Source of the DNA: Burkholderia latens
Lineage (GTDB): Bacteria > Pseudomonadota > Gammaproteobacteria > Burkholderiales > Burkholderiaceae
NCBI RefSeq assembly: GCF_001718795.1
Contig: NZ_CP013437.1
Coordinates: 806,001-870,000, forward strand
Length of the DNA: 64,000 nucleotides
Reading direction: 5' to 3'
In this document: positions 41,336 to 54,756 of the stretch, one piece after another
How positions within the stretch are numbered: position 1 is the stretch's first letter
Layout of the letters: each line of letters opens with the position of its first letter
The notes under the pieces: generated by a model
What the model saw: the letters and a program-made list of their open reading frames with translations, nothing else
What the model was told of the DNA's origin: nothing
Database searches by the model: none
Made by a program: the position numbers and the translations under genes

Positions 41336-41613
41336 GCGGCGGCAACGCGTGTCGCGCGTCAACGTCGCCGGGCGTCGGCGCGCCGGCACGGGCAGACGGT
41401 CGCGCCGAAGCGCTTGCGTGCGGCTCGCCGGTGGGCGCGTGGACGCGCGCGGCAAAGCCGTGCGTCCGCATTCTGGCCGCGCCGCCGCACACGAGGCTGA
41501 CGGGCTGATTACCGTTTTGTAATCGACCGCGCGCGCGGACGCACGGAGCGGTTCTTCGTTTCCGTTTCCCGGTAACATCGCCGCATGTCCCACGAAATGC
41601 GACGGAGCCGGCG
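41336..41613. other. Intergenic region upstream of heavy-metal-type regulator
   Basis: 278 bp. The first part is GC-rich with nothing recognised. The second part has an AT-rich operator (41507-41524, listed separately) about 90 bp before the regulator gene. Confidence 0.6.
41507..41524 (+). promoter_or_regulatory. Response-regulator box 1: GATTAC-N6-GTAATC
   Basis: Perfect palindrome GATTAC-CGTTTT-GTAATC, 89 bp before the response regulator gene. It fits the TTAC-N6-GTAA form typical of operators of heavy-metal OmpR-type regulators (CopR/CusR/CzcR group). Matching boxes stand before the RND pump and both DUF4148 genes. Confidence 0.7.
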
Positions 41614-42291
41614 ATGCGCATCCTGATAGTCGAAGACGAACCGAAGACGGGCGCGTACCTGAAGAAAGGTCTCGAGGAATCGGGCTTCAGCGTCGATCTC
41701 GCGAAGGACGGCGCCGAGGGGCTGATGCTCGCGCAGGAGGAGCGCTACGACGTGATCGTGCTCGACGTGATGCTGCCGGTGCTCGACGGCTGGGGCGTGC
41801 TCAAGCGGCTGCGCGATACGCACACGACGCCGGTGCTGTTCCTGACCGCGCGCGACGACGTGCAGGATCGCGTGCACGGTCTCGAGCTCGGCGCGGACGA
41901 TTACCTCGTGAAGCCGTTCGCGTTCGTCGAACTGCTCGCCCGCATCCGCACGCTCGCGCGCCGCGGGCCGCCGCGCGAAACCGAGCATCTGGCGGTCGGC
42001 GATCTGGAGATCGACGTGGTGCGCCGCCGCGTGAAGCGCGGCTCCACACGAATCGATCTGACGCCGCGCGAATTCTCGCTGCTGCAATTGCTCGCGCGCC
42101 GGCAGGGCGAGGTGCTGAGCCGCACGCAGATCGCGTCGTACGTGTGGGACATGAACTTCGACAGCGACACCAACGTCGTCGAAGTCGCGATCCGCCGCCT
42201 GCGCGCGAAGATCGACGACGCGTTTCCGGTCAAGCTGATCCATACGGTGCGCGGCGTCGGCTACGTGCTCGAACCGAAGGACGGCGCATGA
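41614..42291 (+). CDS. OmpR-type response regulator, heavy-metal (CusR/IrlR) group
   Basis: 225 aa. Receiver with phospho-acceptor Asp51 (VIVLDVMLP) and Lys100, and a winged-helix DNA-binding domain (LTPREFSLLQLLARRQGEVLS; RRLRAKIDDAFPVKLIHTVRGVGYVL). The RKID-type C-terminus and the SRTQIASYVWDMNFDSDTN stretch are characteristic of the CusR/CopR/IrlR subgroup. Its stop overlaps the kinase start (ATGA). It is expected to bind the GATTAC-N6-GTAATC boxes. Confidence 0.95.
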   Translation: MRILIVEDEPKTGAYLKKGLEESGFSVDLAKDGAEGLMLAQEERYDVIVLDVMLPVLDGWGVLKRLRDTHTTPVLFLTARDDVQDRVHGLELGADDYLVKPFAFVELLARIRTLARRGPPRETEHLAVGDLEIDVVRRRVKRGSTRIDLTPREFSLLQLLARRQGEVLSRTQIASYVWDMNFDSDTNVVEVAIRRLRAKIDDAFPVKLIHTVRGVGYVLEPKDGA

Positions 42292-43748
42292 CGCGGCCGC
42301 GCTCGCTCGCCGCGACCCTCGCGCTCGCGTTCGCCGCGACCACGCTCGCCGCGTTTGCGCTCGTCGGCGCATACGTTTACGCGGGGCTCGAACGACAGGT
42401 CAACACACAGGACGATCTCGACATCGTGCTCGCCGCGCGCCACACGCGCCGGCTCGCGGGCGAGCTCGAGTCGGTCGATGCGGTCCGCACGCATGCGGAG
42501 CTGCTCACCAGCCAGGTGCTCGGCAACGAGGCGCTGTCGATGGCCGCCGTCGATGCGCGCGGCGACGTGCTCGCGCGCCACAACGTGCGGCTCGCCGCAT
42601 TCGACGATGCACCCGCCGGCGCGTCGGTTCCGTTGGCCGACGCGCAGCTGTTTGCGCCGCGGGCGGCGCCGGTTCCGGCAAACGACCGGATCACGGCCGA
42701 CCGGCTCGTCACGTGGACGGCCGACGGCGGCACGCCGATGCGCGGCGTCGTGATCGAGGCCGCGCTCGGCGATCGCACGCCGATCCGCATCGCGATCGCG
42801 CGCAACATGCGGGACCGCGCCGACCTGCTTGACGGCTACCGCGACCGGCTCGAAATCGCCGGTGCGCTCGGCGCGCTGTTCGCGCTGCTGCTCGGCTACT
42901 GGCTGATCCGCACCGCGCTCGCGCCGCTGCGCGAGATCGTCGCCGACACCGGCCGGATCACCGTCGACAAGCTCGATACGCGGCTCGACGCGTCGCGCGC
43001 GCCGAGCGAGCTGCGCGCGCTGGTCGACGCGCAGAACGCGATGTTCGGCCGCCTGCAGCAGGCATTCGCGCATCTGTCGCAGTTCAGCGCCGATCTCGCG
43101 CACGACTTGCGCACGCCGCTGAACAACATGCGCGGCGCGACCGAAGTCGCGCTGTCGCGCGCGCGTTCGACGGACGAGTATCAGGCGCTGCTCGAATCGA
43201 ATCTCGAGGAATACGATCGTCTCGCACGAATGATCGACAACGTACTGTTTCTCGCGCGCGCAGAGCATCCGAACTTCGTCACGCGGCAGCGCACGTTCGA
43301 CGTGCGCGACGAGCTCGAGCGCATCGCCGGGTATTTCGAGGGGCTCGCCGACGAAGCGGGCTCGACGCTGCGCGTCGACGGTCAAGGACAGCTCAGCGCC
43401 GACGTCGAGCTGTTTCGCCGCGCGGTGGGCAACCTGCTTGCGAACGCGCTGCGTTACACGCCGGCCGGCGGTGTCATCACGCTCGCCGTCGACGAAACGC
43501 CGGACGCGGTGCGCGTCGTCGTCGCGAATCCGGGCGAGCCGATCGATCCCGCGCTGCTGCCGCGGATTTTCGACCGGTTCGTGCGCGGCGACCCGGCCCG
43601 CAGCGGCGGTGCGCCGGGCGGCACCGCCGGGCTCGGCCTCGCGATCGTGCGCTCGGTGATGGAGCTGCACGGCGGCACCGCGCAGGTCGAAAGCGATGCG
43701 CGCGGCACGCGTTTCGTGCTCACGTTCAACCGGCCGACGGCCGCGTGA
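42288..43748 (+). CDS. Heavy-metal-type sensor histidine kinase
   Basis: 486 aa. TM1 is at about 10-32, followed by a periplasmic domain of about 150 residues, TM2 near 183-205 and a HAMP domain. The H-box is FSADLAHDLRTPLNNMRG with the phospho-His near 271. The N-box is NLLANALRYTPAGG and the G-box GTAGLGLAIVRS. This layout is that of CusS/IrlS kinases. It ends 23 bp inside the convergent outer-membrane efflux gene, so the two genes overlap tail to tail. Confidence 0.94.
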   Translation: MTRPRSLAATLALAFAATTLAAFALVGAYVYAGLERQVNTQDDLDIVLAARHTRRLAGELESVDAVRTHAELLTSQVLGNEALSMAAVDARGDVLARHNVRLAAFDDAPAGASVPLADAQLFAPRAAPVPANDRITADRLVTWTADGGTPMRGVVIEAALGDRTPIRIAIARNMRDRADLLDGYRDRLEIAGALGALFALLLGYWLIRTALAPLREIVADTGRITVDKLDTRLDASRAPSELRALVDAQNAMFGRLQQAFAHLSQFSADLAHDLRTPLNNMRGATEVALSRARSTDEYQALLESNLEEYDRLARMIDNVLFLARAEHPNFVTRQRTFDVRDELERIAGYFEGLADEAGSTLRVDGQGQLSADVELFRRAVGNLLANALRYTPAGGVITLAVDETPDAVRVVVANPGEPIDPALLPRIFDRFVRGDPARSGGAPGGTAGLGLAIVRSVMELHGGTAQVESDARGTRFVLTFNRPTAA

Positions 43749-53933: not shown

Positions 53934-54669
53934 AACCCGTGGTCTCGAAAAGAACTTCGGCACCCATCACGTGCTCAAGGGCATCGATTTCTCCGTCGAG
54001 CGCGGGCAGGTCGTGTCGATCATCGGCCGCAGCGGATCGGGCAAGAGCACGCTGCTGCGTACGCTCAACGGGCTCGAGAGCATCGACGCGGGCACGATCT
54101 CGATCGACGGCGAACGCGTCGATGCGCGGCACGCGGACTTGCGTGCGCTGCGGCTGAAGGTCGGCATGGTGTTCCAGCAATACAACCTGTTTCCGCATCT
54201 GAGCGCCGGACAGAACGTAATGCTCGCGCAGTCGGTGGTGAAGAAGGCACACCGTCAGCAGGCGCGCGCGATCGCGGAGCTGATGCTCGAGCGCGTCGGC
54301 CTCGGCGACAAGTTCGACGCGCTGCCGGAACAGCTGTCGGGCGGTCAGCAGCAGCGCGTCGCAATCGCGCGCGCACTCGCGATGAAACCGAGCGTGCTGC
54401 TGTGCGATGAAATCACGTCCGCGCTCGATCCCGAGCTCGTCGGCGAGGTGCTGGGCGTCGTCGAGCAACTTGCGCGCGAGGACATGACGCTGATCATGGT
54501 CACCCACGAGATGAACTTCGCGCGTGCGGTGAGCGACCGGATCGTGTTCATGCATCAGGGGCGCGTGTGGGAGAGCGGAACGGCCGACGAGATCTTCGAG
54601 CGGCCGCAGACGGTCGAGCTGACGCGGTTTCTGGGCAGCATACGCAATACGGAAGCCGTGGCGCGCTGA
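53920..54669 (+). CDS. Amino-acid ABC transporter ATP-binding protein
   Basis: 249 aa, GlnQ/HisP type. Walker A GRSGSGKST at 36-44, Q-loop in VGMVFQQYNLFPHLS, signature LSGGQQQRVAIARAL near 138-152, Walker B VLLCDEITSALD and H-loop VTHEM. The start at 53920 follows AAAGGAG; the in-frame ATG 27 bases earlier lies deeper within the permease gene. Confidence 0.96.
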   Translation: MPLVETRGLEKNFGTHHVLKGIDFSVERGQVVSIIGRSGSGKSTLLRTLNGLESIDAGTISIDGERVDARHADLRALRLKVGMVFQQYNLFPHLSAGQNVMLAQSVVKKAHRQQARAIAELMLERVGLGDKFDALPEQLSGGQQQRVAIARALAMKPSVLLCDEITSALDPELVGEVLGVVEQLAREDMTLIMVTHEMNFARAVSDRIVFMHQGRVWESGTADEIFERPQTVELTRFLGSIRNTEAVAR

Positions 54670-54738
54670 GCGATCCTGGCGCCGGGCCTGCGCGCGGCGC
54701 CGCGTTCGGCGCAACGGGGCGCGATGCGCGCACGATCA

Positions 54739-54756
54739 GATGACAAGACCGTAATC
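54739..54756 (+). promoter_or_regulatory. Response-regulator box 4: GATGAC-N6-GTAATC
   Basis: 11 of 12 match to the palindrome before the response regulator, spacer AAGACC. It sits at the same distance from the DUF4148 gene as box 3. Confidence 0.55.

Follow-up and report, generated by a model that had tools for sequence, protein, structure and literature searches.

Are a response regulator, a resistance-nodulation-division (RND) efflux pump and two DUF4148 periplasmic proteins joined in one response in a 64,000-nt stretch of Burkholderia latens contig NZ_CP013437.1 (hereafter, the window)? A sequence-only reading of this DNA had proposed so, having noticed a box, GATTAC-N6-GTAATC, in front of each of these genes. 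The boxes are, in our view, very probably operators through which the response regulator from the gene at 41614, a relative of AgrR, would co-activate an AgrABC-type pump and DUF4148 proteins. The most likely arrangement is a Burkholderia form of the Cupriavidus AgrRS-AgrABC system, with DUF4148 proteins in place of CopQ-like proteins. The case is made from sequence: the boxes themselves, their conservation, a polar composite element, conserved clustering and an AgrA-type signature in the pump.

The boxes in the window

The boxes and the genes that they precede are the following.
41507..41524, unstranded: box 1, operator candidate, perfect palindrome GATTAC-N6-GTAATC
50174..50191, unstranded: box 2, candidate core of the pump operator
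50865..50882, unstranded: box 3, candidate core of a DUF4148 operator
54739..54756, unstranded: box 4, duplicate of the box-3 promoter
41614..42291, + strand: response regulator, OmpR family, TIGR01387 subfamily (AgrR/CzcR/CopR type), by model score
46833..50081, − strand: RND permease, AgrA type (AVG..DD..EN..HHxE), by signature and models (PMC10127602)
51007..51321, + strand: DUF4148 protein 1, 104 aa, PF13663 (E 1.7e-14), signal peptide judged by eye
54881..55159, + strand: DUF4148 protein 2, 92 aa, subtype with YPPS..ARN

As had been reported, all four boxes are present, with 0 mismatches at 41507 and one each at 50174, 50865 and 54739. At up to two mismatches the window contains six matches, compared with a mean of 0.42 in 100 shuffles (standard deviation 0.65, largest 3); chance is excluded as the source of the window boxes. 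The matches with two mismatches, at 9371 and 52633, have no composite element (see below) at up to four mismatches. Box 1 lies 89 bp from the regulator ATG, box 2 lies 92 bp from the pump ATG (50081), and boxes 3 and 4 each lie 124 bp from the ATG of their own DUF4148 gene (51007 and 54881). From the box through the start codon, the promoters of boxes 3 and 4 are identical at 132 of 142 bases, whereas their left flanks share just 16 of 60, the homology starting at the box. Boxes 3 and 4 are thus one duplicated promoter, and the four sites of the sequence-only reading, although all present, reduce to three independent ones.

A composite element with a direction

Alignment of the promoters on the box revealed a composite element in which the inverted repeat is followed, toward the pump or the DUF4148 gene, by GTCA at +5, GTMA at +16 and a -10 element at +32. 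The right arm of the box and the half-sites at +5 and +16 form three direct repeats spaced by 11 bp. Of 39 pump and 31 DUF4148 promoters, respectively, 22 and 22 have GTVA at +5, 33 and 10 a half-site at +16, and 30 and 14 a -10-like hexamer at +32. On the opposite side of the pump and DUF4148 boxes, every tested offset stayed below one fifth. A search of the window for the 37-base composite at up to four mismatches gave exactly four sites (0, 2, 2 and 2), and 20 shuffles gave none at up to three.
50136..50173, − strand: pump-facing composite with GTCA at 50165-50168 and 50154-50157 (11-bp spacing) and -10 CAGACT at 50136-50141; 0 mismatches
50883..50920, + strand: composite 3' of box 3 with CTCA at 50888-50891, GAAA at 50899-50902 and -10 CAGAAT at 50915-50920
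54757..54794, + strand: composite 3' of box 4 with -10 CAGAAT at 54789-54794
41470..41506, − strand: composite leftward of box 1 with GTCA at 41498-41501 and -10-like CAGAAT at 41470-41475 (+31), facing away from the regulator

This polar operator, together with a probable regulator and partners for a subset of DUF4148 proteins, is what is new here.

The box accompanies the regulator cluster in related loci

A genome collection was scanned with the window regulator and the best 80 loci were retained. The counts cover L001 to L058; the remaining 22, mostly non-Burkholderiaceae with regulators of 68 to 78% identity, were left uncounted, and several of them also have a box near the regulator. In loci with enough sequence, a gene was scored as boxed when a match with at most two mismatches was present within 300 bp upstream, the best-scoring DUF4148 gene of each locus being used. 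A box was found upstream of the pump in 41/44 loci, of DUF4148 in 32/43 and of the regulator in 32/58 (26/58 being without), compared with 2 of 347 other open reading frames (ORFs) in the same loci. The box accompanies the regulator cluster across loci of Burkholderia, Paraburkholderia, Caballeronia and Pandoraea. The position of DUF4148 shifts, yet the gene stays in the neighbourhood: many loci have it next to the pump, in others it follows the kinase (e.g., L039, L043, L045 and L054), and L004, L007 and L008 have it divergent from the regulator. A box-bearing DUF4148 gene lies kilobases from the pump in the window, in B. latens (G001), in B. cenocepacia (G002) and in BCC0506. The proposal of one operator shared by pump and DUF4148 genes is strongly supported by this conservation, by the control count of 2/347, by the gene-facing composite and by the footprinted boxes of related regulators described below, and from these we infer regulator binding.

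The window regulator is 99% identical to that of Burkholderia latens LMG 24064. In the B. latens type strain (G001:C35), the DUF4148 box nearest to the pump box is ∼24 kb away, versus 0.7 kb in the window (50174-50865), which is a rearrangement between close relatives.

Comparison with known systems and a proposed mechanism

The cluster resembles AgrRS-AgrABC of Cupriavidus metallidurans in that a heavy-metal-type pair stands beside a hybrid-type RND pump, AgrA carrying HHRE and the window permease HHLE (PMC7380067; PMC10127602; PMC2864759). Footprints of AgrR comprise ATKACA-N4-TGTMAT and in-phase direct repeats, with type II activation, and the window element comes close to the outer core ATKAC-N6-GTMAT and has in-phase direct repeats (PMC7380067). 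This outer core is matched by the boxes at 41507 and 54739, those at 50174 and 50865 each being off at one core position, and the inner A and T of the longer form are only partially retained in the window boxes. The targets of AgrRS also include a small secreted periplasmic protein, and the unphosphorylated form of its regulator is active in a silver-resistant mutant. Unlike in AgrRS, the window pair is convergent with the pump (the two are divergent in Cupriavidus, L052, L058 and L259), the small proteins are DUF4148 and not CopQ-like, and the best composite operator sits at the pump promoter. CopQ-like (PrsQ) proteins carry a repeated RDXXTDG motif that is lacking from the window DUF4148 proteins.

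A similar box, aTTAC-N6-GTAAT, has been DNase-footprinted for CzcR3 of Pseudomonas putida, which binds its own promoter too and differs in controlling metal RND pumps (czcCBA) (PMC8469834). The earlier remark that the form TTAC-N6-GTAA fits known operators finds support in the footprinted boxes of related regulators (PMC7380067, PMC8469834). In the cop genes of C. metallidurans, a 37-bp motif proposed for CopR1 lies ∼50 bp before the mapped starts, except those of copG, copK and copO; its geometry is close to that of the window composite (PMC7563307). Overall, the box is a real, conserved regulon box and most likely a variant of the AgrR type.

In the mechanism that we propose, a regulator dimer would bind the inverted repeat ATNAC-N6-GTNAT, and further regulator molecules would occupy the half-sites 11 bp apart (GTCA at +5, GTMA at +16), covering the -35 region. 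RNA polymerase would then be recruited to the weak -10 at +32 (class II activation), and the RND pump of AgrABC type would be switched on along with the periplasmic DUF4148 proteins. We infer the binding, the activation and a periplasmic stress signal (metal or oxidant) that would be read by the kinase.

Alternative explanations

Several points weigh against this mechanism. As the 58 loci are related, the counts show persistence, not independent events. In most loci the pump and DUF4148 have a single intergenic region in common, and their box counts therefore overlap: where both genes have an upstream box (29 loci), at least one site is common to the two in 28 loci and there is just one site in six, and a DUF4148 site lying outside the region upstream of the pump was seen in only 4/43 loci. 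The two can be separated as targets because the composite has direction, the -10 hexamer patterns having been picked after the alignments were seen and the half-sites of the window DUF4148 promoters (CTCA, GAAA) being imperfect. In the mutant of C. metallidurans with active AgrR, agrA, agrB and agrC changed only slightly, with the values given in brackets (PMC7380067), and agr expression was not observed to vary with metal availability (PMC10127602). Furthermore, the same genomes encode related regulators whose boxes and recognition helices resemble those described here, so the sites could be used by one of these. One alternative is thus that the boxes are real but serve mainly an IrlR-, CzcR- or CopR-like regulator encoded elsewhere, with a minor or modulating part for the adjacent pair. 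CusR, CopR and CzcR of Pseudomonas share one palindrome, and IrlR and MmnR had the same target in a genome-wide in vitro assay (PMC11195947); the window regulator and its IrlR-like relatives have near-identical recognition helices, and AgrRS of C. metallidurans modulates CzcR output (PMC10127602). We nevertheless regard this alternative as unlikely: in the modules examined the box type tracks the local regulator, being GTAAT here, ATGAC-N6-GTCAT by IrlR-like and L186 regulators and ATGAA-N6-TTCAT by a more distant one, and the box stays with this regulator's cluster in the four genera named above. That DUF4148 is not a target at all, the nearby boxes serving the pump and the box of the duplicated gene having been carried along by duplication, is very improbable, the shared intergenic regions raising its odds only marginally. 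The recent duplication of the window promoters and the sites upstream of both genes in 28/29 loci would fit such a view; however, the composite faces DUF4148 at the frequencies given above, with no comparable signal on the other side, box-bearing DUF4148 genes lie kilobases from the pump at the four places listed, and the window duplicates are homologous only from the box onward.

Control of the regulator itself is the part of our proposal for which an alternative comes closest. The composite of box 1 faces away from the regulator, which makes autoregulation the weakest link, and a box precedes the regulator in only 32/58 loci. The leftward element resembles a DUF4148 promoter without its gene: no DUF4148 gene was found at that spot in the window, whereas L004, L007 and L008 have one there, so box 1 may be a DUF4148 promoter whose gene was lost. 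That box 1 is such a leftover and the regulator is constitutive has, in our estimate, somewhat less than an even chance. The GTCA at +5 and CAGAAT at +31 to its left speak for this, as do a leftward GTVA at +5 in 9/32 regulator boxes and the 26/58 regulators without an upstream box. On the other hand, the box lies 55-66 bp from the regulator in many Paraburkholderia loci, with a -10-like hexamer at +20/21 (24/32 boxed loci), and loci of the Burkholderia cepacia complex have a conserved TAACAT at +48 after box 1. Regulator promoters have no half-sites, and their -10-like hexamer is at +48 in 7/32.
41573..41578, + strand: putative regulator -10, TAACAT, 48 nt after box 1, of Burkholderia cepacia complex type

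Autoregulation from box 1 is plausible and the least supported link of our proposal. The box claimed before the regulator is present, perfect in the window and shared by 32/58 loci, but the composite attached to it in the window points the other way.

Genome-wide distribution of the box

At up to one mismatch, 12 relatives have 6 to 18 box matches each, compared with 0 to 3 for the reversed pattern. In B. latens (G001), four of the 12 matches are the cluster's own sites, all intergenic, and the other eight are inside mechanically called ORFs (at least 100 aa). Four of the nine matches in B. cenocepacia are cluster sites; two of the other five are inside ORFs and three in no called ORF. For two of the B. 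latens ORF matches the coding status is doubtful, as no called ORF covers the corresponding B. cenocepacia sites. With the composite pattern at up to two mismatches, four of the five G001 matches are cluster sites. These B. latens counts are the check on whether box matches are as common in coding DNA as upstream of genes. At up to three mismatches, the composite gave 5 to 15 matches (both strands) in six whole genomes, versus 0 to 9 for its reversed form; in P. polaris (G011) both numbers were 9, and weak matches there therefore mean little. The composite pattern is usable to find further members.

A tRNA as an explanation for five off-cluster match loci was looked for and not found. One conserved box-like site, at G001:C10:143252 and G002:C1:504065 (L148/L195 and L169/L199), has matrix scores of 14.9 and 16.5 and is located ∼1.8 kb downstream of a gene for the box-associated DUF4148 subtype. 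In P. fungorum (L251, L252), three further genes have composite sites in front of them: a second DUF4148 gene near a porin gene, a LysR gene whose start was placed by its domain, and a gene for cytochrome c. Among the targets of AgrR is an OmpC-type porin, to which binding is weak (PMC7380067).

The DUF4148 proteins

The two window proteins score 54.4 and 49 bits with PF13663 (cut-off 27). A search with the Pfam model yielded 22 to 28 DUF4148 copies in five of seven genomes, and 9 and 18 in the others. The 300 bp upstream of 72 DUF4148 genes (22/22 in B. latens, 26/26 in B. cenocepacia and 24/28 in P. polaris) were scored with a matrix built from the pump boxes only. A score of at least 14 was reached by 8/72 genes, versus 1/223 control ORFs, that one being the B. 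cenocepacia pump box; a box common to all DUF4148 genes is ruled out by this count. Five of the eight belong to this cluster; the remaining three lie next to two further heavy-metal-type pairs, whose regulators are 64 to 66% identical, and have the variant ATGAC-N6-GTCAT. These few examples suggest that each operator type goes with its local regulator. Genes of the YPP-x-ARN subtype (mature part), a signature selected after the data were seen, scored at least 10 in 6/8 cases versus 3/64 of the others, and at least 14 in 5/8 versus 3/64. A module in B. cenocepacia (L164/L170; G002:C7, ∼503-516 kb), with an RND permease 58% and a regulator 44% identical, has two DUF4148 genes, each after a perfect palindrome ATGAA-N6-TTCAT. 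An enrichment of DUF4148 near OmpR-type regulators was unconvincing (within 5 kb, 0/22 in G001 and 4/26 in G002, against ∼2 expected overall by a rough hand estimate).

We tentatively suggest, while holding it to be a little more likely wrong than right, that some DUF4148 proteins are to Burkholderia what the CopQ/PrsQ proteins are to Cupriavidus: many-copy small secreted accessories of regulator-plus-RND-pump modules, each under the operator of its own module (GTAAT, GTCAT or TTCAT). If this is true, such copies, including those beside irlRS pairs, would be envelope-stress effectors recruited by pair-specific operators. In B. pseudomallei, DUF4148 genes adjoin irlR2S2 and irlRS, a linkage called possibly coincidental; the likeness to the window is that DUF4148 stands beside an IrlR-type pair, and the available account gives no operator (PMC7549894). 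On our suggestion, that linkage would be no coincidence. Membership of the CopQ family itself was rejected: the presumed CopQ of pMOL30, taken as such from gene order, has RDxxTDG-like repeats and no Pfam match, whereas the window proteins have PF13663 and no such repeat. Among the papers listed by a literature search on these terms, none combined DUF4148 with CopQ, AgrR or PrsQ.

A DUF4148 operon is among the most As(III)/Sb(III)-induced in Achromobacter (PMC11719878), one member has been reported as a virulence factor (PMC7549894) and another is putatively essential in B. cenocepacia (PMC8770471). The regulon offers a handle on the role of these proteins, as a DUF4148 subset linked to a single regulator, a pump whose substrate is uncertain and a precisely defined operator lends itself to simple reporter and deletion tests. 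The structure of protein 1 was predicted with low confidence (mean predicted local distance difference test (pLDDT) score 58); for protein 2 a helix-loop-helix core of ∼40 residues was predicted with pLDDT >90, and this core had no PDB match at E 0.001.

The pump, the kinase and neighbouring genes

The remaining genes of the cluster are the following.
42288..43748, + strand: sensor histidine kinase (TIGR01386), by model score
43726..45237, − strand: outer-membrane factor of the pump, NodT type
45265..46779, − strand: periplasmic adaptor of the pump, 504 aa, start inferred
50352..50816, + strand: MEKHLA/PAS-like protein between pump and DUF4148; no composite faces it

The pump is transcribed in the order RND (A), adaptor (B), outer-membrane factor (C), and the permease and outer-membrane genes keep the same order in most related loci. 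The permease signature, AVGILVDDATVAIENITHHLE, reads AVG, DD, EN and HHLE. Judged by these residues, the pump carries an AgrA-type signature, as matched to the published description of C. metallidurans AgrA (AVG, DD, EN and HHRE, related to neither metal nor AcrB-like permeases; PMC10127602). All 46 relatives with a permease match carry AVG/DD/HHxE, and the Cupriavidus campinensis homologue, with HHRE, is beside a 69% identical regulator, with a box in between. A typical heavy-metal-efflux (HME) RND exporter was considered and rejected, the permease having a double Asp and not the single Asp of the transmembrane segment 4 motif, and scoring 392 bits with TIGR00914 (CusA/CzcA) against a cut-off of 701; multidrug permease models scored it below their cut-offs. 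The term 'heavy-metal-type', used in the sequence-only reading, is apt for the regulator (TIGR01387, 344.8 bits, cut-off 279.2) as a family label only, the pump being without the metal-RND motif.

From replicon, gene order and motifs, the B. cenocepacia counterpart of the pump is probably BCAS0582-0584, that is ORF14/CDS14, of cluster C and of 'uncertain function' (PMC2891726, PMC1557404). Both are on the third replicon, are tripartite with the permease gene first in the operon and have an HAE-like double Asp; near the permease N-terminus, by our own reading, the window has LA and cluster C has XA. Expression of ORF14 was reported as not detectable in LB or with chloramphenicol (PMC1557404). 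BCAM0711-0716 is ruled out as the orthologue of the cluster, BCAM0711-0713 being the metal pump RND-11.

The kinase scores 432.2 bits with TIGR01386 (cut-off 292.55). In the periplasmic part of 63 kinases, including that of the window, His52 and Glu59 are invariant, and His69 and His98 are conserved in 92% and 89%; such residues would suit a metal or oxidant sensor and prove nothing. In a megaplasmid record of C. metallidurans CH34 (L130), a regulator homologue (69%) at 12001-12675 has one in-frame stop. An amino-acid-type ABC transporter at 51704-54669, between both DUF4148 genes, carries no composite operator. B. multivorans (L220) likewise has a MEKHLA gene between pump and DUF4148, and in B. 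latens (L218) one lies beside DUF4148.

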